Assembly: GCA_017999915.1 (NCBI GenBank)
Contig: JAGNKX010000002.1
Location: 124,001-188,000 of the forward strand
DNA length: 64,000 nucleotides
Source: Spirochaetota bacterium
GTDB lineage: Bacteria; Spirochaetota; UBA4802; UBA5550
Reading direction: 5' to 3'
This document shows positions 15,899 to 25,314 of this stretch, in pieces. The position numbers were made by a program, and so were the translations under genes. Each line of letters opens with the position of its first letter. Within the stretch, counting starts at the first letter, position 1. The notes beneath the pieces were generated by a model. The model saw only the letters and a program-made list of their open reading frames with translations, was not told the DNA's origin and did no database searches.

Positions 15899-16018
15899 CC
15901 AAAACAATCCTAAAAAGAATTACTCTGACCCCATACTCTTATCCCGGAAAAAAACAGTTGAACAAATATGGCCAAATATATATGTAGCCAGACAGACACC
16001 CATAAATCGGAGCGCACC

Positions 16019-17218
16019 ATGAGCGGCGTAGAAATCAAAAAAAGCTATGAAGAGATAAACAAGAAAATAAAAGAAGGCAAGGCCGTTGTCGTCACGGCCG
16101 ACGAAATGCCCGATATCGTGGCTAAAGAGGGCGTTGACGGCGCCTTCAAAAAGGTCGACGTGGTCACCACCGGGACCTTCGGCGCCATGTGCTCCTCAGG
16201 CGCGTTCCTGAATTTCGGCCACACGAAGCCGCGCATGAAAATGTCGAAGGTATGGCTCAACAACGTCGAGGCCTATGGCGGAATCGCCGCCGTGGACTGC
16301 TTCATCGGCGCAACCCAGGTGCAGGAGAACGATCCCCTCAACATGGTCCACCCCGGCAGGTTCACCTACGGCGGCGGCCATGTCATCGAGGACCTGATCG
16401 CCCATAAGCGCATCAAGCTCAAGGCGGCAGGGTACGGCACCGACTGCTATCCCCTGAGAGAGCACGAAGCGACGATAACCATCGACGACCTCAGGGACGC
16501 CATCATGTTCAACCCGCGCAACGCCTATCAGAACTACAACTGCGCGGTGAACCTTTCGCAGAAAACCATCTATACATACATGGGCATACTGAAGCCCGAC
16601 ATGGCCAACGCGAGCTACTCCAGCGCCGGCCAGCTCTCCCCTCTGCTGAACGACCCCTACTACTGGACCATCGGCACCGGCACGAGGATATTCCTCTGCG
16701 GCGCGGCCGGCTCCGTGGTGTGGCATGGCACACAGCACGCGCCGGATTGCAAGCGGGGCGACAACGGCATCCCCTGCGAGGGAAGCGGCACCCTGGCCGT
16801 AATGGGGAACATGAAGGAGATGGACCCGCGCTTCGTCCGGGGCGCCTCCTTCACCGGGTACGGATGCTCCATCATGATCGGCATCGGCATCCCCATCCCC
16901 ATCATCAACAGGGACATGGCCTACTTCACCGGCCAGTCCGACAGGGACCTCCGCTGCCAGGTTGTCGACTACGGCAACGACTACTCAGCCGGCATCGGCC
17001 GCTCCCTGGGAGAGGTCACCTACGCCGAGCTCAAAACGGGCCGCATAGATTTCATGGGCAAGACCATCGACGCCTCGCCGCTGTCAAGCTACCCCATGGC
17101 GCGGAAGATAGCCCTGGAGCTGAAAGATTGGATCATGAAGGGATTCACCATCGGCGTGCCCCAGACGCCCCTCCTCACCGTGCCGTGCAAAAAGGACAGG
17201 GACGATGAAGCGCGCTGA
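16019..17218 (+). CDS. Homocysteine biosynthesis protein, DUF39/COG1900 (L-aspartate semialdehyde sulfurtransferase)
   Basis: The family was shown in Methanosarcina (MA1821) to convert aspartate semialdehyde and sulfide to homocysteine, using cysteine persulfides. This 399-residue protein is the short form without CBS domains. Candidate persulfide cysteines are Cys58 (TFGAMCSSGAFLNFGH) and Cys143 (GYGTDCYPLREHE), in the same sequence settings as the two catalytic cysteines described for MA1821. I chose ATG 16019, preceded by GGAG at six bases, over ATG 15968, which lacks a ribosome site. It overlaps the next gene by 14 bases and forms a three-gene operon with UPF0280 and NIL-ferredoxin genes. 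Confidence 0.88.
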   Translation: MSGVEIKKSYEEINKKIKEGKAVVVTADEMPDIVAKEGVDGAFKKVDVVTTGTFGAMCSSGAFLNFGHTKPRMKMSKVWLNNVEAYGGIAAVDCFIGATQVQENDPLNMVHPGRFTYGGGHVIEDLIAHKRIKLKAAGYGTDCYPLREHEATITIDDLRDAIMFNPRNAYQNYNCAVNLSQKTIYTYMGILKPDMANASYSSAGQLSPLLNDPYYWTIGTGTRIFLCGAAGSVVWHGTQHAPDCKRGDNGIPCEGSGTLAVMGNMKEMDPRFVRGASFTGYGCSIMIGIGIPIPIINRDMAYFTGQSDRDLRCQVVDYGNDYSAGIGRSLGEVTYAELKTGRIDFMGKTIDASPLSSYPMARKIALELKDWIMKGFTIGVPQTPLLTVPCKKDRDDEAR

Positions 17219-17933
17219 ACGGACATACCGCAATTTCACCGACACGGCCAGGTGGAAAAGCTGCCGAGTGAAGGTAGAAACATCGGACCTCTATATCAGG
17301 GCGGCCATTGACCTCTCTGCCCGCGCCGAAGAGGCGGTCCGCCGCGCTAGGTGCGAGATCATGGCCCATATCGACCGCCAAAACGAGTTCCTCACATCAT
17401 TCACGCCTCTAGAGCGTCTCAAGGGCTGTCCTCCCATCGTTTCGCTGATGTACGACGCCTCGGAGCGCGCCGACGTGGGACCGATGGCGGCCGTGGCAGG
17501 TGCCGTGGCGGAAATCGTCGGCAGGGCACTTATGGACTATTCCGAAGAAATTATCATAGAGAACGGCGGGGATATCTGGATGCGCCTCGCGGAGCCCGCC
17601 GCGGTAAGCATCTATCCGGGAGGGCACTACTTTGACGCGGTTGCGCTGAAGATACACCCGCATCGGACGCCCTGCGGTATCTGCACCTCCTCCGCGCGGA
17701 TAGGCCTTTCCTTCAGCTTCGGCAAGGCCGACGCTGCCACGGTGATCGCCGGCGACACCGCCCTGGCCGACGCCATAGCCACTGAGGTGTGCAACAGGGT
17801 GCAAAGCGAGGATACGATGGAAGACGCGGCGGATTATGCCATGAGCCGCGGCGCCGACGGCGTTGTCATTATTTATCGCGACCGTCTTGCTGCCAGGGGC
17901 GACGTTGAATTGACCGATCCAAAGGGAGAATAA
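17205..17933 (+). CDS. UPF0280 (COG2122) protein of the sulfide-to-homocysteine pathway
   Basis: The 242-residue product matches the ApbE-like UPF0280 family, recognisable by the GPMAAVAGAVAEIVGR stretch and IIENGGDIWMRL. In Methanosarcina the homologue MA1715 is needed for efficient sulfide assimilation into homocysteine. The exact reaction is not known. Overlap with the DUF39 gene upstream (14 bases) and a 2-base gap to the ferredoxin downstream give a tight operon, which strongly supports a shared pathway. Soluble, no signal peptide. Confidence 0.85.
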   Translation: MKRAERTYRNFTDTARWKSCRVKVETSDLYIRAAIDLSARAEEAVRRARCEIMAHIDRQNEFLTSFTPLERLKGCPPIVSLMYDASERADVGPMAAVAGAVAEIVGRALMDYSEEIIIENGGDIWMRLAEPAAVSIYPGGHYFDAVALKIHPHRTPCGICTSSARIGLSFSFGKADAATVIAGDTALADAIATEVCNRVQSEDTMEDAADYAMSRGADGVVIIYRDRLAARGDVELTDPKGE

Positions 17934-17935
17934 CA

Positions 17936-18355
17936 ATGAATTCAAAAAACGTGCTTCTCATATTCAATAAAAAAATCATGTACAAGCCGCTGATATACAG
18001 GCTTGCGAAGGATTTCGACGTGGTCTTCAACGTGCTGGAAGCGAAAATATTACCCAAGCTTGAGGGCCGCCTTATCCTGGAGCTCCGCGGCACCGAGGAA
18101 TCGATCAACGGCAGCATCGAGTACCTCTCCCGGGAGGGGGTGGCGGTGGAGACCCTCGTCAAAAGGATCGTGCGTGACGACGACCGCTGCATCAACTGCG
18201 GGGCCTGCACCTCCGTGTGCAGAGTCGACGCCCTCTCGATAGACCGGACGACCATGGAGGTGGTCTTCGATCCAGACAAGTGCGTCGCCTGCGGGCTCTG
18301 CAAGATAGCCTGCCCCGTGGGGGCCATGTCGGGGGCGAGCATAGACCTGGATTAA
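17936..18355 (+). CDS. NIL-domain two-[4Fe-4S] ferredoxin
   Basis: 139 residues: an N-terminal NIL domain (about 1-75, a ferredoxin-like fold often found with methionine metabolism) followed by two [4Fe-4S] motifs, CINCGACTSVC and CVACGLCKIAC, each with a trailing CR or CP partner. This is the layout of Methanosarcina MA1822, the electron or sulfur-relay partner of the DUF39 homocysteine enzyme. It is the last gene of the operon, and its TAA stop forms part of the terminator palindrome. Confidence 0.88.
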   Translation: MNSKNVLLIFNKKIMYKPLIYRLAKDFDVVFNVLEAKILPKLEGRLILELRGTEESINGSIEYLSREGVAVETLVKRIVRDDDRCINCGACTSVCRVDALSIDRTTMEVVFDPDKCVACGLCKIACPVGAMSGASIDLD

Positions 18356-18391: not shown

Positions 18392-19522
18392 TCATATCTT
18401 CTTATTATAAAACCGGTAGGTCTTGTAAATCCTCGCGCCCATGTGGTCCAGGGCGTTGCGCATGGCGTGGTTGTTTTCCACTATGAGGGACATGTCGGCC
18501 ATGGTGTATCCCATCTTTTTCGCCCGCTCGAAGGTCTCCACGTAGAAATAGGCATCGAGGCCTCTCATGCGGAACTTCGGCCGCACGCCCATGACGATCG
18601 TTTTCAGCCTGTATATCTTCTTCATGGCGAGGAGGATCTTTATAAGCCCGAAGGGGAAGAGCCTTCCATTGGCCTTCTGCAGGGCGGGATTGGCGTCCGG
18701 TATCGACAGGATGAAGCCGGCAATCTCGCCGTGGTACTCCGCCATGAGGACAAGCTCCTGCTTCACGATCGTCTTCAGCTCCTGGGCGAACTTGTCCCAC
18801 TGCTTCTCCGTGAGGGGATAATGGCCCCAGTTCTCGCTCCAGGCCTCGTTGAACACGGTGAGGATCTTCATCTTCTCCTCGTCGAACCTCTTCAGATTGA
18901 CATCCCGTATGACCAGGCCGTCCTTTCCCTCCGCGTTGTCGCGTTTCACCTTCTCCCACATCTTGTAAAAGAGCTTCGGGAACCGCTCTTCGACGGTCTG
19001 CCTGTAGGCGTACCAGTCGACCTTTTTCTCGAACCCGTAATCCATAAAAAGGTCAGGGTAATAGGGAGGATTGTAGGCCAGCTCCACCGGCGGGATATTT
19101 TCATAATCGTCCATCAAGATACCCGGCGCGTCATAGAGCGTGAAGTTGTAAGGGCCCTGCATGTCCGTCATCCCTTTCTCTTTGAGCCACATCCCGGCTG
19201 CTTCGAAAAGGCCCCGCGAAACGCCGGTATCGTTGATCGACTCAAAGAAGCCGATGCATCCCCGCTTCTCCTTAAAATACTCGTTATGGCGATGATCAAT
19301 ATGGGCAATGACGCGGCCTACAATCGCACCATCGCGGTACGCCAGGAACGGCTGAATCTCGCCGACCTCATGGTATGAGCCTGCTTGAATGAACTTCACC
19401 TGCTCCCCGATGAGGGGCGGCACCCAGTATGGATTGCCACGGTAAAAATTCCAGGCGCAGGTGACGAAATTTTTAATGTAGGCCTTGTTATTTTCGATAG
19501 GCACAACCTGGATATTGCTCAT
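18392..19522 (-). CDS. GNAT-fold acyltransferase-like protein (candidate ceramide synthase step)
   Basis: The 376-residue protein belongs to a GNAT-like family common in anaerobic and deltaproteobacterial genomes, recognised by WNFYRGNPYWVPPL, the GRVIAHIDHRHNE strand, GFFESINDTG and the C-terminal MGVRPKFRMRGLDAYFY acyl-CoA-binding-like segment. Its ATG directly abuts the stop of the upstream alpha-oxoamine synthase gene. In Caulobacter the bacterial ceramide synthase is also a GNAT-type acyltransferase, though of a different subfamily, so N-acylation of a sphingoid base is a reasonable but untested role here. No membrane segment is evident. Confidence 0.7.
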   Translation of the reverse strand: MSNIQVVPIENNKAYIKNFVTCAWNFYRGNPYWVPPLIGEQVKFIQAGSYHEVGEIQPFLAYRDGAIVGRVIAHIDHRHNEYFKEKRGCIGFFESINDTGVSRGLFEAAGMWLKEKGMTDMQGPYNFTLYDAPGILMDDYENIPPVELAYNPPYYPDLFMDYGFEKKVDWYAYRQTVEERFPKLFYKMWEKVKRDNAEGKDGLVIRDVNLKRFDEEKMKILTVFNEAWSENWGHYPLTEKQWDKFAQELKTIVKQELVLMAEYHGEIAGFILSIPDANPALQKANGRLFPFGLIKILLAMKKIYRLKTIVMGVRPKFRMRGLDAYFYVETFERAKKMGYTMADMSLIVENNHAMRNALDHMGARIYKTYRFYNKKI

Positions 19523-20716
19523 TTAAATAATCCCCAGCTTCTTCCCAACCTTCTTGAATACCTCGAAGCTCCGGTCAAGGTCCTCCCTGGTATGAGTGGC
19601 CATAACGCCGAGGCGTATGCGCGATTCAGCAGGCGGCACCGCCGGGTGCACAATGGGCGAAGCGTACACGCCCTCGTCGAAGATCATCTTGTTGAAGGTC
19701 ATGGTCTTTTCCACGTTGCGGATGAGGAGCGGCACCACCGCCGTCCGGGAGGGACCGGTGTCGAAGCCGAGATCTTTCAGCCCCTTGAGAAAGTACGAGA
19801 TATTGTCACACAGGCGCTGGCGCCACTGGGGCTCTTCATCCAGGAGCTCAAAGGCCCGGTATACCCCCGCCGCGGTCATCGGCGGCAGGGAGGCGGAGAA
19901 TATGTACGCCGAGGAATTATGGCGCAGGTGATCAATGAAATCGGACGGTCCCGCGACAAAGCCGCCTACCGCGCCGGCGAACTTGGAGAAGGTCCCGGCG
20001 ATCACGTCCGGCGCCTGGGGCAGGCCGAACTGGTCCGGGAGACCGTAGCCCCTCTTCCCCAGCACCCCGAGGCTGTGGGCCTCGTCGATGAGAAGAAGCG
20101 CGCCGTGCTCGTTTTTCAGGCGCTCCAGCTCCTTCAGGTCGGCCCAGTCGCCGTCCATGCTGTAGACCGAATCGACGATGATGAGCATTCGCTGGTACTT
20201 GGTTTTGACACGCTCAAGCAGCGAGGCAAGGTCTTCCGTGTCGTTGTGGAGCCACATCCGCTTATCGCTCCCGGAGAGCGTCACCCCGTCGACGATGCTC
20301 CGGTGCACCAGGCTGTCCAGGAGGGCAACGTCTCCCTTGCCGATGGTGGCCTGAATGGACGCCAGCAGCGCCTGGTACCCGCTGGGCAGGAGCACGCAGG
20401 CTTCACGCTCGTAGAGCCGCGCGACCTTCTCCTGGAGCCGGTAATGGATATCCGTGGTACCGCAGGCCAGGGGAGACCCGCCGATGCCGAGGCCGTACTT
20501 TTCCGCGGCCCTGATGACCGCCTTCAGCACCTCGGGATGCGTGGAAAACCCGAGGTAGTTGTTGGAGATGAAGTTGATCCGCTCCTTGCCGCTTACCGTG
20601 ATGCGGTTGGCGCAGGCCGATGTCACCTCGAGGCTGTAGGTGTATATGTTCTCCTTGCGCAGCATCGACAGGAGCGCCGCCTGCTGCTTCATGGCATCAC
20701 TGACTAACTGACTCAT
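19523..20716 (-). CDS. Serine palmitoyltransferase-like alpha-oxoamine synthase
   Basis: A PLP enzyme of the SPT/KBL/BioF family that condenses an amino acid with an acyl thioester, releasing CO2. Visible active-site parts are the stacking His138 (SLVHRSIVDG), Asp211/His214 in IDEAHSLGVLG and the PLP lysine Lys245 in GTFSKFAGAVGGF. The TFSK context resembles bacterial serine palmitoyltransferase more than glycine acetyltransferase. The upstream acyl carrier protein and acyl-AMP ligase would supply an acyl-ACP, and the neighbouring KDSR-like reductase fits 3-ketosphinganine as product. ATG 20716 has a GAGG site eight bases before it; ATG 20734 has none. Other amino acids (alanine, glycine, cysteate) cannot be excluded. 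Confidence 0.8.
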   Translation of the reverse strand: MSQLVSDAMKQQAALLSMLRKENIYTYSLEVTSACANRITVSGKERINFISNNYLGFSTHPEVLKAVIRAAEKYGLGIGGSPLACGTTDIHYRLQEKVARLYEREACVLLPSGYQALLASIQATIGKGDVALLDSLVHRSIVDGVTLSGSDKRMWLHNDTEDLASLLERVKTKYQRMLIIVDSVYSMDGDWADLKELERLKNEHGALLLIDEAHSLGVLGKRGYGLPDQFGLPQAPDVIAGTFSKFAGAVGGFVAGPSDFIDHLRHNSSAYIFSASLPPMTAAGVYRAFELLDEEPQWRQRLCDNISYFLKGLKDLGFDTGPSRTAVVPLLIRNVEKTMTFNKMIFDEGVYASPIVHPAVPPAESRIRLGVMATHTREDLDRSFEVFKKVGKKLGII

Positions 20717-20742
20717 CGATTGATCCTCATTCAAATAAATTA

Positions 20743-20994
20743 TTAAACCAGCTTGTTCTCGAGATATTTTATTACTTCAAGGACTGTCTGGAGCTCCATT
20801 ACCTCGTCCAGGTCCGGATCGAAATCATACATCTCCGTGATCCTCGAAATGGCCTCCATGCTTTTCAGGCTGTCGAACCCCAGGTCCTCCCTGAAGCGGT
20901 CGCCGTCCTTGATCTCGTCGGGCTTCTTTCCCGACAGCTTGGCGATAATTGCAAGAAAATCCTTCCGGATCTGTTCGGCTGAAATCGTTCCCAT
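20743..20994 (-). CDS. Acyl carrier protein dedicated to the lipid locus
   Basis: An 83-residue acyl carrier protein. The phosphopantetheine attachment serine is Ser42 in [11 protein letters not shown]. The frame is open farther upstream, but ATG 20994 follows a strong GGAG site and gives a normal-length ACP, so I use it. It is wedged between the fatty acyl-AMP ligase and the alpha-oxoamine synthase (8-26 bases from the synthase start), which argues for a specialised carrier handing the acyl chain to that enzyme rather than the housekeeping ACP. Confidence 0.9.
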
Positions 20995-21118
20995 TCCTTT
21001 CTCCTTTATTATGAGGAAAATACGCGCGCACTCCCGCCACGGCTCCATGCACGACGGCACAGTGTGATATATGTCGCAATATTTTCAATGACTATTTTAC
21101 ATCGCGAGGCCGATGACC

Positions 21119-22945
21119 CTATTGCGTGAGGCGCCGCCTGAACAGGTGGAAGTGGCTCATCAGGAAGGTCTTCGCCAGGACCAGGAGATTCTTGCTTTTA
21201 TTCGGGATCAGCTCTCCTTCCAGGTATATCTTCTTGCACAGAAAGCGCTGCGTCTTGCCGCTGGTGGTCTTCGGGATGCTCTCCCTGGGAACCAGCCTGA
21301 TGTCGTCCGGCGCGATGCCCAGCTTGGCGAGGATCTCGCTATGAACTTCCTGCCTGAGCCGCTCCAGCTCTTTTTTATCCTTTACCGTGGTTTCGCACAC
21401 CAGCACCAGGTCCTCGGTGCCCTGCTCCTCGTTATGGACATCAAAGGCGGCGCAGCATCCCTTGCGAATCCCCTTGACCGTGGAGGCAATCCTCTCGATA
21501 TCGTAGGGATAGATATTCTTGCCGCGCTTGATGATCATTTCCTTTTTGCGGCCCGATATGAAGAGCATGCCGTCGAGGACAAATCCCATATCGCCGGAAT
21601 GAAGCCATCCGTCCCTGACGGCCTCCTTCGTGGCCTTCGGATTCTTGTAAAAGCCGCTCATGAGGCTGGGGCTTTTCACGCAGATCTCACCCACCTCGCG
21701 CTCGTGCAGAATCTTGCCATGGTCGTCGACGATCCTGATCTCCTGCCCCACCAGGGGATACCCGACCGACACCAGGTCGATATACTCCTGGGAATTCTGG
21801 CTGTTGGAATCAACGGCGCGGTCATCCTCCTCGAGCTTGCTTCTCATGAAGCGGCGCGCCACGGTGGTTCTGTCCAGAGACGGAAAGGTCGCCGCGAGGC
21901 TGTCTTCCGCCATGCCATACACTGGTAGAAAGATATCCTCCCGGAGGCCGCAGGGCTTGAATTTTTCCAGGAACTTGTTCAGGGTGACCCGGTCCACCGG
22001 CTCGGCGCCGTTCAGGGCAAGGCGCCACGAACCGAGATCCAGCTTATGCACGTCCTTGTCTTCTATTCGCGTTACGCAGTAGTGGTATCCGAAATTGGGC
22101 GCCACGCCCATGGTGACGCGATACTTCGAGATATTCTCAAGCCACCATATGGGCCTGAAGATGAAGGCTTCGGGCGCCATCAGCACCAGGGGAATGTTCC
22201 AGTACATGGTCGATAAAAAGCCCCCGATGAGACCCATGTCATGGTACATGGGGAGCCAGCTGATGCCCACGTCGTTGTCGGTCATGGCGCTGGCCACGCC
22301 GATGCCGTGGATGTTATGGAGCAGGTTCCGGTGGGACAGCATCACCCCCTTGGGCTTTCCCGTCGTCCCCGATGTATACTGGATCAGGGCCAGGTCGTTC
22401 GGTTTCACAACGGGGAATTTTTTGTACTCTTCCTTCGAGACCGGGTTGGCGAAAATCTCATCATCGAAGAGAAACCCGTTCACCAGGTTCGATATGTTCA
22501 TGAGACTGCCGGCTATGAGCTTGATCTTGTCATAGGTGATGAAGTACCGCGCCTCGCAGTCGTGGATGATATGGGTCAGGTTGTCGAGATACTTGCCGAT
22601 ATTGCTGGTGCCCGCCGGCTGGCTGACCGGAACCGGCACGCCGCCGGCTATGATAATGCCGAAATACACGTAGGCGAAATTGCGGCCCGTGGGAAGCATG
22701 ATGACGACTTTGTCGTTCTGCTTAAGCCCCCTGGCCATGAGATACTGCGCGACGGATCCCGCTTTTTCAAGGACCTCCGAAGCTGAGACCCTGGTCTCCT
22801 TGTTCTTCAAATCCATGAAGATGAGGAATTCAGGATTCAATCCCGCCCTCCTCTCAAGGGCCTCAACAAGGGTCTGATATTTCAGTGAATACGTGGAATC
22901 GTTTTTCAAGTGTGCGATTTTTGCTGCTCCCGCTATTGCGTTCAT
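21119..22945 (-). CDS. Fatty acyl-AMP ligase (FAAL-like acyl-ACP synthetase)
   Basis: A 608-residue adenylate-forming enzyme. It shows the phosphate loop YTSGTTGKPKGVML (190-203), the FAAL-type WLPMYHDMGLIGGFL block, NGAEPV, the VYGMAEDSLAATFP stretch and the DGWLHSGDMGF and RGKNIYPYDIE motifs. The enzyme should activate a fatty acid to its adenylate and load it on the downstream ACP. It heads the operon ligase-ACP-synthase-GNAT. A short AAGGAT site precedes the ATG. The C-terminal 40 residues beyond the usual domain end (LLVLAKTFLMSHFHLFRRR) are hydrophobic and basic and may touch the membrane. Confidence 0.88.
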   Translation of the reverse strand: MNAIAGAAKIAHLKNDSTYSLKYQTLVEALERRAGLNPEFLIFMDLKNKETRVSASEVLEKAGSVAQYLMARGLKQNDKVVIMLPTGRNFAYVYFGIIIAGGVPVPVSQPAGTSNIGKYLDNLTHIIHDCEARYFITYDKIKLIAGSLMNISNLVNGFLFDDEIFANPVSKEEYKKFPVVKPNDLALIQYTSGTTGKPKGVMLSHRNLLHNIHGIGVASAMTDNDVGISWLPMYHDMGLIGGFLSTMYWNIPLVLMAPEAFIFRPIWWLENISKYRVTMGVAPNFGYHYCVTRIEDKDVHKLDLGSWRLALNGAEPVDRVTLNKFLEKFKPCGLREDIFLPVYGMAEDSLAATFPSLDRTTVARRFMRSKLEEDDRAVDSNSQNSQEYIDLVSVGYPLVGQEIRIVDDHGKILHEREVGEICVKSPSLMSGFYKNPKATKEAVRDGWLHSGDMGFVLDGMLFISGRKKEMIIKRGKNIYPYDIERIASTVKGIRKGCCAAFDVHNEEQGTEDLVLVCETTVKDKKELERLRQEVHSEILAKLGIAPDDIRLVPRESIPKTTSGKTQRFLCKKIYLEGELIPNKSKNLLVLAKTFLMSHFHLFRRRLTQ

Positions 22946-23540
22946 TTTTATATCCTTAATAGTATTTTTTTATTTACCGCATAAATCTTCAGCCTGACCT
23001 ATACAAAGGCCATTAATAAGCCCGATCATTAGTATTATTGTTACGTGGCGCTGCCGCTGGAACGGCACTTGTGAAATTTTTATCTAAATAATGTAGTGAT
23101 AAAATTTTTTCATGATATATGTTTTGGTAATACTCTTGTTATTGTTCATATTTTCTTTTTGTTTTTTAAGAAAGATACTATCCACCACGTTTCAAAAAAA
23201 ATCATTCTTAAAGCATTGAATATAATAATAAGCAAGATACGTGCCAAATTAATTTTTTATTTACCTCGTTTTTCAGCAAATTATGCATGATTTAATGGCA
23301 TTAAATATATTTTTGATTAATTTCCGATGATCAGGACCAAATAAATCCACACTCCGTATCATATATGCAACCAAACATCCCCAGAGGGCTTTTTATTCAA
23401 TTTGCCCCTTTACCCTTTCACTTGTATGGATTTTTCAAGTCTTAACAAAGAAATTGAATATTCATTGACATGCACAGAGACGCCGTAGCATCTCTAATCT
23501 CCGAGCAAGAAGGCCCTTATGAATCATGGAGATTGACAAC
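22946..23540. other. AT-rich divergent regulatory region of the lipid locus
   Basis: About 595 bases separate the acyl-AMP ligase operon (leftward) from the KDSR-like gene (rightward). The stretch 22950-23460 is distinctly AT-rich compared with the genes on both sides. The frame at 23096-23290 has lysine and isoleucine bias typical of AT-rich noncoding DNA and no ribosome site. I see no gene and no clear operator. Confidence 0.55.
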
Positions 23541-24383
23541 ATGGCTGATGCAAAAAGATTTTTTTCAGGCAAAACGGCAATTATCACCGGCGGCTCCAAG
23601 GGAATCGGGAAAGCGGCTGCCATGGAATTCGTTTCCGGCGGCGGGAGCGTATGCATTGTCGCGCGGAACAAAAAAGATCTGCAAAGCGCCGCTGACGAAA
23701 TAAGCAAAGCCCGCGCAAGTGATACCCAAACGGTCGCAACGATCGCCTGCGACACCACTGACATGAAAAAGCTCAAGCCCCTCATCGAGGGATACATCAA
23801 AAAAAACGGCATTCCCGATTACCTCATGAATTTCGTGGGATACGCGCAGCCCGGTTACGTCCAGGACTACACATTGGAAGACTTTAAAGGGAACATGGAA
23901 ACCAATTACTACGGCCAGCTCGTTCCGATCCTTATCGTCCTTCCTCACTTTATGAAAAGAGGGTCCGGTTATATTGTCACCTGTTCATCGCTCCTCGGAT
24001 ACCTCGGCATGATCGGATACGCAACCTATTCGCCGTCAAAATTCGCCATCTGCGGCCTCACCGAATCCCTGCGCAGCGAGCTATCGCACCGTGGCATACG
24101 GTTCTCCATCCTGTATCCACCCGATACCGACACGCCGGGATTCGAAAACGAGAACAAGTTCAAGCCGGCGGAAGTGATGATCATGTCGGAAACGGGCGGT
24201 CTTCTCACCGCCACGCAGGTGGCGCAAAAGCTCATGCGGGGAATAATGAAGAACCAATTTTACATCCACCCGGGACAATCCAGGCTGCTCTGGTCGATCG
24301 CCCGTCATTTCCCGAACCTCGCACACTGGATCATGGACGGGGAGTTTAAAAAGGCGATGAAGAAGCTGAACAACAAAAAATGA
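23541..24383 (+). CDS. 3-ketodihydrosphingosine reductase-like SDR
   Basis: A 280-residue short-chain dehydrogenase. It has the NAD(P) loop TGGSKGIG (16-23), catalytic Ser150, Tyr163 and Lys167 (Y-S-P-S-K), and the segment YPPDTDTPGFENEN (192-205). The YPPDTDTPGF string is the hallmark of eukaryotic KDSR, which reduces 3-ketodihydrosphingosine to dihydrosphingosine, and the following KFKP...ISET-like context also fits. NFVG replaces the usual NNAG. It is divergent from the SPT-like operon, giving the second step of the same pathway. ATG 23541 has GGAG nine bases upstream; ATG 23526 lacks a site. A C-terminal KKLNNKK tail ends the protein. Confidence 0.83.
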   Translation: MADAKRFFSGKTAIITGGSKGIGKAAAMEFVSGGGSVCIVARNKKDLQSAADEISKARASDTQTVATIACDTTDMKKLKPLIEGYIKKNGIPDYLMNFVGYAQPGYVQDYTLEDFKGNMETNYYGQLVPILIVLPHFMKRGSGYIVTCSSLLGYLGMIGYATYSPSKFAICGLTESLRSELSHRGIRFSILYPPDTDTPGFENENKFKPAEVMIMSETGGLLTATQVAQKLMRGIMKNQFYIHPGQSRLLWSIARHFPNLAHWIMDGEFKKAMKKLNNKK

Positions 24384-24438: not shown

Positions 24439-25314
24439 TTACTTATAATCGTTAATTCGCTCGCTTTTCTTTTCGTCCTGTTCAACAAGCTCCTGCATAT
24501 GCTTGTAGTGGGGGGATTCAATGCCGTATTTAAGCTCGACTGCCTGTAACATGCTCCTGTTCTTCTTGCTCTTGTATGTATTGATCTCATCCTCGGAGGC
24601 ATGCCTGTATTTCTGGAGGACCTTCTCCATGTATCCGTAGCAGCTGGACATGTACTTGTACGCCCATATGTCCTTTGCGTTCTTGTCGGACAACGTTATA
24701 TAGCGCTCCAAAAGGGCTATGCAGGGAAGAAAATTCTGAAGGTCATACTGTGTTGAGACATATACCTGAAACAACCTGGTCTGGAAATTGAGGAACCGCG
24801 GCTCCTGCCTGATTTCCTGGTGCTGCACCTGGTCGAGATAATTGATGGCCTTGGTCAGATACGTAACGGATTTCATCTTGGCCTCCGTCTTCTTTGACCA
24901 GATGAGGCGCTGCTCGGCGTTCTTCCTGTCGATCTCCTGCCAGTACCACCGCTCATTGAGATTCTTCTTCTCCTTATTGGTGGTCCGGATTTTTATCACC
25001 TCGTTTTCCATGTCTTCGAGAATATCGAGCCCCGTCGAGTACTCGTCGATTGCAAGCTTTAAAAGATTGTCGGAATATTCCTTGTTCAGCTTTTCAAGCT
25101 CCTGGATCGCCTTGATGTAAGGTTTAAAGTCCCTGATCCTCCACCCGGTCACTTCCACTTCGCTGAACTCATTGAGGGCGGATGAATCCTTTTTCTCTTC
25201 TTTTTTCTTTTCATCCGCCTGCTGAGCGGATATCCGGGACGATAACCCCACGGTGAATACAAGGGCCCCTATCAGTACAGCAATAATAATCTTTGACATA
25301 TTTCCTGGTTTCAT
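24439..25314 (-). CDS. Exported helical protein, possibly FcpA-like flagellar sheath protein
   Basis: 291 residues with a signal peptide (hydrophobic 8-26, cleavage near ISAQQA), then a charged Lys/Glu stretch (34-45) and an almost wholly helical body with motifs such as EIDRKNAEQRLIWSKK, SVTYLTKAINYLDQ and FQVYVSTQYDLQNF. This composition, length and spacing recall the leptospiral flagellar coiling protein FcpA, which coats periplasmic flagella. That similarity is from memory and unverified. It stands alone between the KDSR terminator and the DnaC-like gene. If not FcpA-like, it is an uncharacterised periplasmic TPR-type protein. Confidence 0.55.
   Translation of the reverse strand: MKPGNMSKIIIAVLIGALVFTVGLSSRISAQQADEKKKEEKKDSSALNEFSEVEVTGWRIRDFKPYIKAIQELEKLNKEYSDNLLKLAIDEYSTGLDILEDMENEVIKIRTTNKEKKNLNERWYWQEIDRKNAEQRLIWSKKTEAKMKSVTYLTKAINYLDQVQHQEIRQEPRFLNFQTRLFQVYVSTQYDLQNFLPCIALLERYITLSDKNAKDIWAYKYMSSCYGYMEKVLQKYRHASEDEINTYKSKKNRSMLQAVELKYGIESPHYKHMQELVEQDEKKSERINDYK

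Follow-up and report, generated by a model that had tools for sequence, protein, structure and literature searches.

A candidate sphingolipid locus with a KDSR-family reductase and an alpha-oxoamine synthase outside the SPT clade in a spirochaete family

Sphingolipids are best known from human cells. In bacteria, the pathway of Caulobacter crescentus and E. coli B comprises five genes (AasR, AcpR, Spt, Epi/CerR and Aca/bCerS, the last being YghO), and YghO/Aca is a known family of bacterial ceramide N-acyltransferases. In this pathway AcpR, loaded by an AasR-type ligase, is the carrier preferred by SPT (PMC9386255). In Bacteroides thetaiotaomicron, which has the SPT BT_0870, the SDR-type protein BT_0972 was shown to be a bacterial KDSR that reduces the free base (PMC9278070), and Pseudomonas PfSgaAB(C) combines an alpha-oxoamine synthase (AOS) having SPT activity with a proposed KDSR homolog, PfSgaC, on an acyl chain from a polyketide synthase (PMC12134224). 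Desulfobacterota carry CerR-SPT-GNAT operons (L176-L185), and the cysteate acyl-ACP transferase SulA/CapA of Alistipes is an ACP-dependent AOS with the SPT fold. We found no description of sphingolipid synthesis in spirochaetes in the open-access literature.

The locus reported here lies between positions 18,392 and 24,383 of the window (the whole stretch of DNA analysed, 64,000 nucleotides), and the assignment of its host to the spirochaetes was borne out. The five open reading frames that a preliminary description had placed there are all present and intact, with concordant gene classes in Pfam and NCBIfam. With the Caulobacter/E. coli B pathway the locus has in common a dedicated acyl carrier protein (ACP), an acyl-ACP ligase, an AOS and a YghO-family GNAT; it differs in using a KDSR-type classical SDR where those bacteria have the epimerase-type CerR, in an AOS that falls outside the SPT clade, and in a GNAT that is not constant at the locus. 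BT_0972 is likewise an SDR-type 3-ketosphinganine reductase, but it is not clustered with the SPT and the Bacteroides scheme includes neither fatty acyl-AMP ligase (FAAL) nor ACP. Where Pseudomonas draws on a polyketide synthase the spirochaete locus has FAAL and ACP, and in the AOS tree a comparable enzyme, from the PKS cluster of Shinella, has a different position. The Desulfobacterota operons also place an AOS next to a YghO-family GNAT, but their AOS belongs inside the SPT clade and their reductase is epimerase-type, and no ACP or FAAL was seen within the 4-kb stretches. As parts, the ACP, ligase and GNAT are already known from Caulobacter/E. coli B and the KDSR from Bacteroides.

FAAL, ACP and AOS form one operon on the minus strand. 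The FAAL (21,119-22,945; PF00501) is an AasR-like acyl-ACP synthetase, matching E. coli B AasR at 33% identity over 557 aa and the NCBIfam fatty acyl-AMP ligase model PRK09192 at 445 bits, which is below the cut-off. The ACP (20,743-21,006; PF00550, 45.8 bits) has 87 aa from its ATG, with an alternative GTG start at 21,060, carries the DSL phosphopantetheine motif and matches E. coli B AcpR weakly. A FAAL-type ligase and an ACP adjacent to the synthase, in the same order in nine genomes, reproduce the AasR/AcpR-type arrangement, and the dedicated ACP and acyl ligase described earlier thus stand. The AOS, a PLP-dependent, SPT-like enzyme, occupies 19,523-20,734, with a probable true start at 20,716 (codon 7), the ATG at which its orthologs begin; its stop codon abuts the start codon of the GNAT (18,392-19,522, minus strand; 376 aa; PF00583). 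The SDR (23,526-24,383, plus strand) is transcribed divergently.

Read from these genes, the locus is likely, with some room for doubt, to make a sphingoid base and probably ceramide. In the pathway that we infer, with its substrates, step order and product, a free fatty acid would be activated by the FAAL at the expense of ATP and transferred to the dedicated ACP; the AOS would condense this acyl-ACP and a small amino acid, of which L-serine is the likeliest, releasing CO2 and leaving a 3-ketosphinganine-type base; the KDSR-type SDR, drawing on NAD(P)H, would reduce the 3-keto group, giving sphinganine; and a YghO-family GNAT (the operon copy, another copy or both) would N-acylate this to dihydroceramide. 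The ceramide-type route is supported by the E. coli B homologs, which match the FAAL, the GNAT and the AOS. The sphingoid-base route put forward in the preliminary description is accordingly plausible in outline, but the GNAT subfamily given there and the membership of the synthase in the SPT clade were not supported.

The SDR belongs to the eukaryotic KDSR family, as had been proposed. It forms a well-supported clade with TSC10 and human KDSR (support 100/99), in a tree that left out BT_0972 and used a human sequence taken to be KDSR, and the clade with TSC10 persists at 96/88 when the human sequence is left out. A search of a Prevotella chromosome for an ortholog of BT_0972 returned generic SDRs only. 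TSC10 (8jat) is also the best solved relative. The protein carries TGGSKGIG, the catalytic Ser, YxxxK and, at residues 197-206, YPPDTDTPGF; a second KDSR-like SDR in the same genome lacks the PPDTDTPGF motif. We predict from these features that the enzyme reduces 3-ketosphinganine as KDSR/TSC10 would. A KDSR-type reductase is not new in bacteria, with BT_0972 (PMC9278070) and PfSgaC (PMC12134224) preceding it. No CerR gene was found at the locus; with E. coli CerR as a query the genome gave one weak match (E 3e-17), and a deltaproteobacterial CerR gave many extended SDRs at 27-29% that were mutually indistinguishable.

The position of the AOS is less simple. Its best solved relative is the Sphingobacterium SPT (8guh/3a2b), and against solved structures it scored 304 bits with SPT and 224 bits with the cysteate transferase. 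Its top NCBIfam model is SPT (CFB) at 362 bits (cut-off 640), hardly above BioF at 356 bits, both scores being below the cut-offs. In the trees the clade of characterised SPTs (support 100/98) excludes it and places it on a neighbouring branch (a 34-row group, 91/80), so membership of the synthase in that clade was not upheld. A joint clade of this AOS with SPT alone was weakly rejected (AU p 0.028 and 0.047), and a grouping with BioF/KBL was not rejected (p 0.14 and 0.10). As judged from these trees, the AOS is a separate lineage beside the SPT clade, and probably its sister.

At the active site, the catalytic and pocket positions K251, H144, N58, S87 and A281 are kept together with G86, S192, T248, S250, S280 and R374, a set that takes in the PLP lysine and the residues holding L-serine. 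Most of the SPT pocket is thereby retained, including N52, S81, H138, S185, T241, S243, K244, S273, A274 and R367 in the numbering of the Sphingobacterium SPT (PMC10196870). The TFSK active site that had been read as SPT-like is indeed present (residues 248-251) but is not diagnostic, as a BioF encoded next to bioD has TFSK too. Compared SPTs differ in three places, with GSR for GSP, Asn for S359 and TFSKS for TFSKF (F252); these changes, the placement outside the SPT clade and the near-equal SPT and BioF scores count against the proposed sphingoid-base route.

A further reading, which the trees permit, makes the AOS a BioF or KBL that sits in an atypical gene neighbourhood and serves biotin or threonine metabolism. 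We consider this very improbable, given operon partners that are FAAL, ACP and KDSR, residues 243 and 274 that are unlike those of Coxiella-type KBL, and the lack of bioB above cut-off in eight of the nine genomes carrying the locus, the one studied here included; in the ninth, G002, a different AOS adjoins bioB. Hardly any weight goes to a sulfonolipid route in which the AOS would be a cysteate acyltransferase of the SulA/CapA type making a capnine-like product: SulA does accept acyl-ACP, and its pocket is almost that of SPT (PMC9304779), but Lys281, which marks SulA, is replaced by Ala in 12 of 12 members of the AOS clade, and the solved cysteate transferase scored far under SPT. BioF, KBL and SulA identities were accordingly rejected on pocket residues and bioB context. 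Use of alanine, glycine or another amino acid, giving a long-chain amino alcohol that is 1-deoxy or modified in some other way, after reduction and N-acylation by the partner enzymes, is unlikely but deserves more attention, since the AOS forms a lineage of its own and differs beside the substrate pocket, SPT itself accepts Ala and Gly poorly (PMC10196870), and uncultured bacteria with unusual sphingolipids have been reported (PMC11334938). Against it stand the retained L-serine-holding residues and the Ala at 274, which is Thr in BioF and Asn or Thr in KBL. Condensation of serine with a long acyl thioester is, on the pocket residues, the most likely reaction.

Nine genomes of this family of uncultured spirochaetes have this AOS (68-94% identity), and FAAL-ACP-AOS was found in all nine; at eight of these loci the divergent SDR is present as well (57-77% identity, alignment A2). 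This constancy of order excludes a chance assembly. The genome without the SDR at its locus, G010, counts against the main reading. A GNAT stands at the locus in two genomes only, the one studied here and G010, with a remnant of 31 residues in that of G003. The conserved unit is therefore four genes (FAAL, ACP, AOS and SDR): the full five-gene route claimed at first is present in this genome but is not what the family conserves. No second AOS was found in this genome.

Sister families have a canonical SPT, a KDSR and a GNAT, and one genome of the same order (L042) has an SPT-clade AOS, a KDSR and a GNAT side by side. Since none of the nine locus-bearing genomes has a canonical SPT, the cassette probably took its place, and replacement of an SPT that the sister families retained is the most likely history. 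Among 39 genomes of the order, in a test that ignores shared ancestry, a GNAT accompanied an SPT-like AOS in 17 of 18 genomes against 1 of 21 (Fisher p 6e-9), and a KDSR-like SDR in 18 of 18 against 4 of 21 (p 2e-7). FAAL-ACP-AOS also occurs in three deltaproteobacterial MAGs with no adjacent SDR or GNAT, although in one of them the contig ends near the ACP. Two candidates were discarded: an AOS fragment in G003 proved to be no SPT but a different type of AOS (63% to L122), and a hit near the second GNAT (L003, on G000 C19) does not represent an AOS. The AOS and SDRs retrieved from plasmids were for the most part unrelated and served as references only.

The operon GNAT had been assigned to another subfamily; it belongs instead to the YghO/Aca family, aligning at full length with E. 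coli BL21 YghO (30% identity over 375 aa, E 1e-62) in a comparison made against YghO that left out CC_1154. A structure model of it, computed with two sequences as input, was of low quality (pLDDT 56) and was discarded. The operon copy branches with that of G010 only, apart from an order-wide GNAT, and the genome has a second, vertically inherited YghO-family GNAT elsewhere, at G000:C19:47443-48549. The absence of a GNAT from seven of the nine loci, and of any good GNAT from the whole G001 genome, counts against the ceramide reading. The rarity of the GNAT at the locus would also suit a cassette whose product is not a membrane ceramide but a long-chain aminoketone or amino alcohol, secreted as a signal or secondary metabolite, the neighbouring GNAT being incidental, as would the deltaproteobacterial loci and the free sphinganines from PKS-AOS clusters (PMC12134224; Shinella plasmid). 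We hold this to be improbable, as nearly all locus-bearing genomes have the vertically inherited YghO-family GNAT, which tracks the SPT-like AOS in the order. From its family, a YghO-family GNAT probably N-acylates the sphingoid base, in keeping with the ceramide route.

More tentatively, the locus may represent a second bacterial origin of sphingolipid synthesis, in which an ACP-dependent synthase from outside the SPT clade replaced SPT in one spirochaete family, with deltaproteobacterial exchange in either direction and a eukaryote-type KDSR reducing before N-acylation; the synthase might also take a different amino acid in place of serine, with an undescribed base as its product. If the sphingolipid route proposed for the locus is right, surveys by canonical SPT and CerR would miss or misjudge this spirochaete lineage, the first step would be open to takeover by a neighbouring enzyme lineage supplied by a dedicated carrier protein, and the combination with a KDSR-type reductase would make the disputed order of the bacterial steps testable in a natural system.

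The FAAL and SDR genes are separated by an A+T-rich intergenic region of 580 bases (22,946-23,525), which presumably holds both promoters; a promoter scan of it gave one weak minus-strand match, no more than in shuffled sequences. The scan also found a plausible terminator between the SDR and fcpA.

The five genes of the preliminary description were recovered in the window as an intact minus-strand operon encoding a fatty acyl-AMP ligase (FAAL, 21119-22945), an acyl carrier protein (ACP, 20743-21006), an alpha-oxoamine synthase (AOS, 19523-20734) and an N-acyltransferase (GNAT, 18392-19522), with a short-chain dehydrogenase (SDR, 23526-24383) divergent from it on the plus strand. All five classes were supported by Pfam and NCBIfam. 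The AOS and GNAT genes abut and are thus probably co-translated. The genome (5.46 Mb, 29 contigs) has near relatives filed as Spirochaetes bacteria, e.g. RBG_13_51_14 and RBG_16_49_21.

We compared the locus across all nine genomes of this spirochaete family that carry the AOS, which was 68-94% identical across five congeners and three further genera. The order FAAL-ACP-AOS was kept in all nine (in G004 a contig break falls inside the locus), with the SDR lying divergent beside this cassette in eight, G010 lacking it at the locus and having another SDR resembling 3-ketosphinganine reductase (KDSR). The GNAT adjoined the AOS only in the window and G010, with a 31-residue remnant at the locus in G003, so the conserved unit comprises four genes; the five genes proposed to form a full route occur together as one set in this genome only. 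Among 393 Spirochaetota genomes, close AOS relatives were confined to these nine genomes of four genera. The cassette also occurred in three deltaproteobacterial MAGs (AOS 62-63% identical; the third contig ends near the ACP), which suggests horizontal transfer, to or from deltaproteobacteria.

By pairwise score, the solved structures nearest to the AOS were Sphingobacterium serine palmitoyltransferases (SPTs), with 304 bits vs 257 for the next kind. In a phylogeny including added Desulfobacterota sequences, the AOS, first described as having an SPT-like active site, fell outside the SPT clade (branch supports 100/98) and was not placed with BioF/KBL either: the SPT clade adjoins a group of the window AOS clade and some further AOS (joint support 91/80), BioF/KBL lying outside. 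AU topology tests weakly rejected a clade of this lineage and SPT alone (p 0.028, 0.047) and were compatible with a clade joining it to BioF/KBL (p 0.14, 0.10); that the AOS is a BioF is excluded by context. The AOS keeps the PLP- and L-Ser-binding residues defined in Sphingobacterium SPT (PMC10196870), has Ala281 where cysteate transferases carry their marker Lys281 (PMC9304779), and departs from the SPTs compared at GSP, S359 and F252. The likeliest substrate would be L-serine. An AOS sister to the window clade sits in a conserved gene set with oxidoreductase-like and further ORFs (L119:7973-13651, L121:8122-13800), and three congeners hold another, near PKS-linked AOS in the tree and with no recognised partner genes (L122:4812-6104, L123:3599-4888, L204:2094-3323). 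A 43-45% identical AOS was found in 10/395 Desulfobacterota genomes (L176-L185), those placed in the tree falling in the SPT clade; most are flanked by a gene resembling CerR (epimerase-type ceramide reductase) on one side and a YghO-family GNAT on the other, with a PAP2-like ORF nearby.

The best match of the SDR among solved structures was TSC10, a 3-ketodihydrosphingosine reductase. A phylogeny built from 53 SDRs grouped it (100/99) with TSC10, human KDSR (37.5% identical over 232 aa), other KDSR-like SDRs from this order and an SDR encoded in a Shinella PKS-AOS-SDR cluster, and the clade persisted at 96/88 once the human sequence and the longest entries were left out. Its proposed KDSR type was thereby borne out at the level of sequence. 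PPDTDTPGF is missing from the other KDSR-like SDR of this genome. The Shinella plasmid genes (L144:3202-12813; type I PKS, AOS and KDSR-like SDR, consecutive) lie within a capsule gene region and resemble the PfSga cluster. CerR-like and KDSR-like SDRs are fused in one ORF of 632-651 aa in two deltaproteobacterial genomes carrying a related cassette (L166:8938-10893 and L167:8761-10659, minus strand), and adjoin unfused in sister families (L129:8402-10252, L201:5314-7357, G037, G034, G036, G027, G025) and in G016, a genome without an SPT-like AOS.

The GNAT, previously assigned to another subfamily, shows full-length homology to YghO of E. coli B (30% identity, E 1e-62), listed as the product of that strain's ceramide N-acyltransferase gene aca (PMC9386255), and so belongs by homology to that known family. 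It branches with that of G010 only; a second, vertically inherited YghO-family GNAT (here G000:C19:47443-48549) is present in nearly every genome of the order with an SPT-like AOS. The FAAL is 33% identical to the E. coli B enzyme over 557 aa and the ACP matches E. coli B AcpR weakly; in Caulobacter, this ligase type loads a dedicated ACP, and the loaded ACP is preferred by SPTs (PMC9386255).

Sister families of the order have a canonical SPT-clade AOS, a KDSR-like SDR and a YghO-family GNAT, in one case as a single operon (L042). Across 39 related genomes, the GNAT was present in 17/18 with an SPT-like AOS vs 1/21 without, and the KDSR-like SDR in 18/18 vs 4/21, p-values being only a guide given shared kinship. 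The nine cassette genomes keep KDSR (9/9) and mostly a clear GNAT (8/9), and no canonical SPT was found in them. The most economical interpretation is that the cassette substitutes for SPT. The locus likely works like an SPT pathway, and would make a sphingoid base that probably feeds ceramide synthesis. An SDR-type 3-ketosphinganine reductase is known from Bacteroides (PMC9278070) and a dedicated ACP and ligase from Rhodobacteria (PMC9386255); sulfonolipid synthesis provides an example of an AOS fed by an ACP (PMC9304779), and 40 bacterial phyla are proposed to have Spt-like proteins (PMC11334938). The locus is a new combination of known parts; also new are a synthase lineage that branches apart from the SPT clade and the likely displacement of SPT by this lineage inside one spirochaete family.

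Beyond the SDR, a relative of the Leptospira flagellar coiling protein FcpA (24439-25314, minus strand; under the family cut-off) is conserved beside the locus in most of the nine genomes. Three neighbouring genes (15968-18355, plus strand) encode an HcyBio homocysteine synthesis enzyme, a UPF0280-type protein and a NIL-ferredoxin, a trio that resembles the sulfide-dependent homocysteine route of methanogens.
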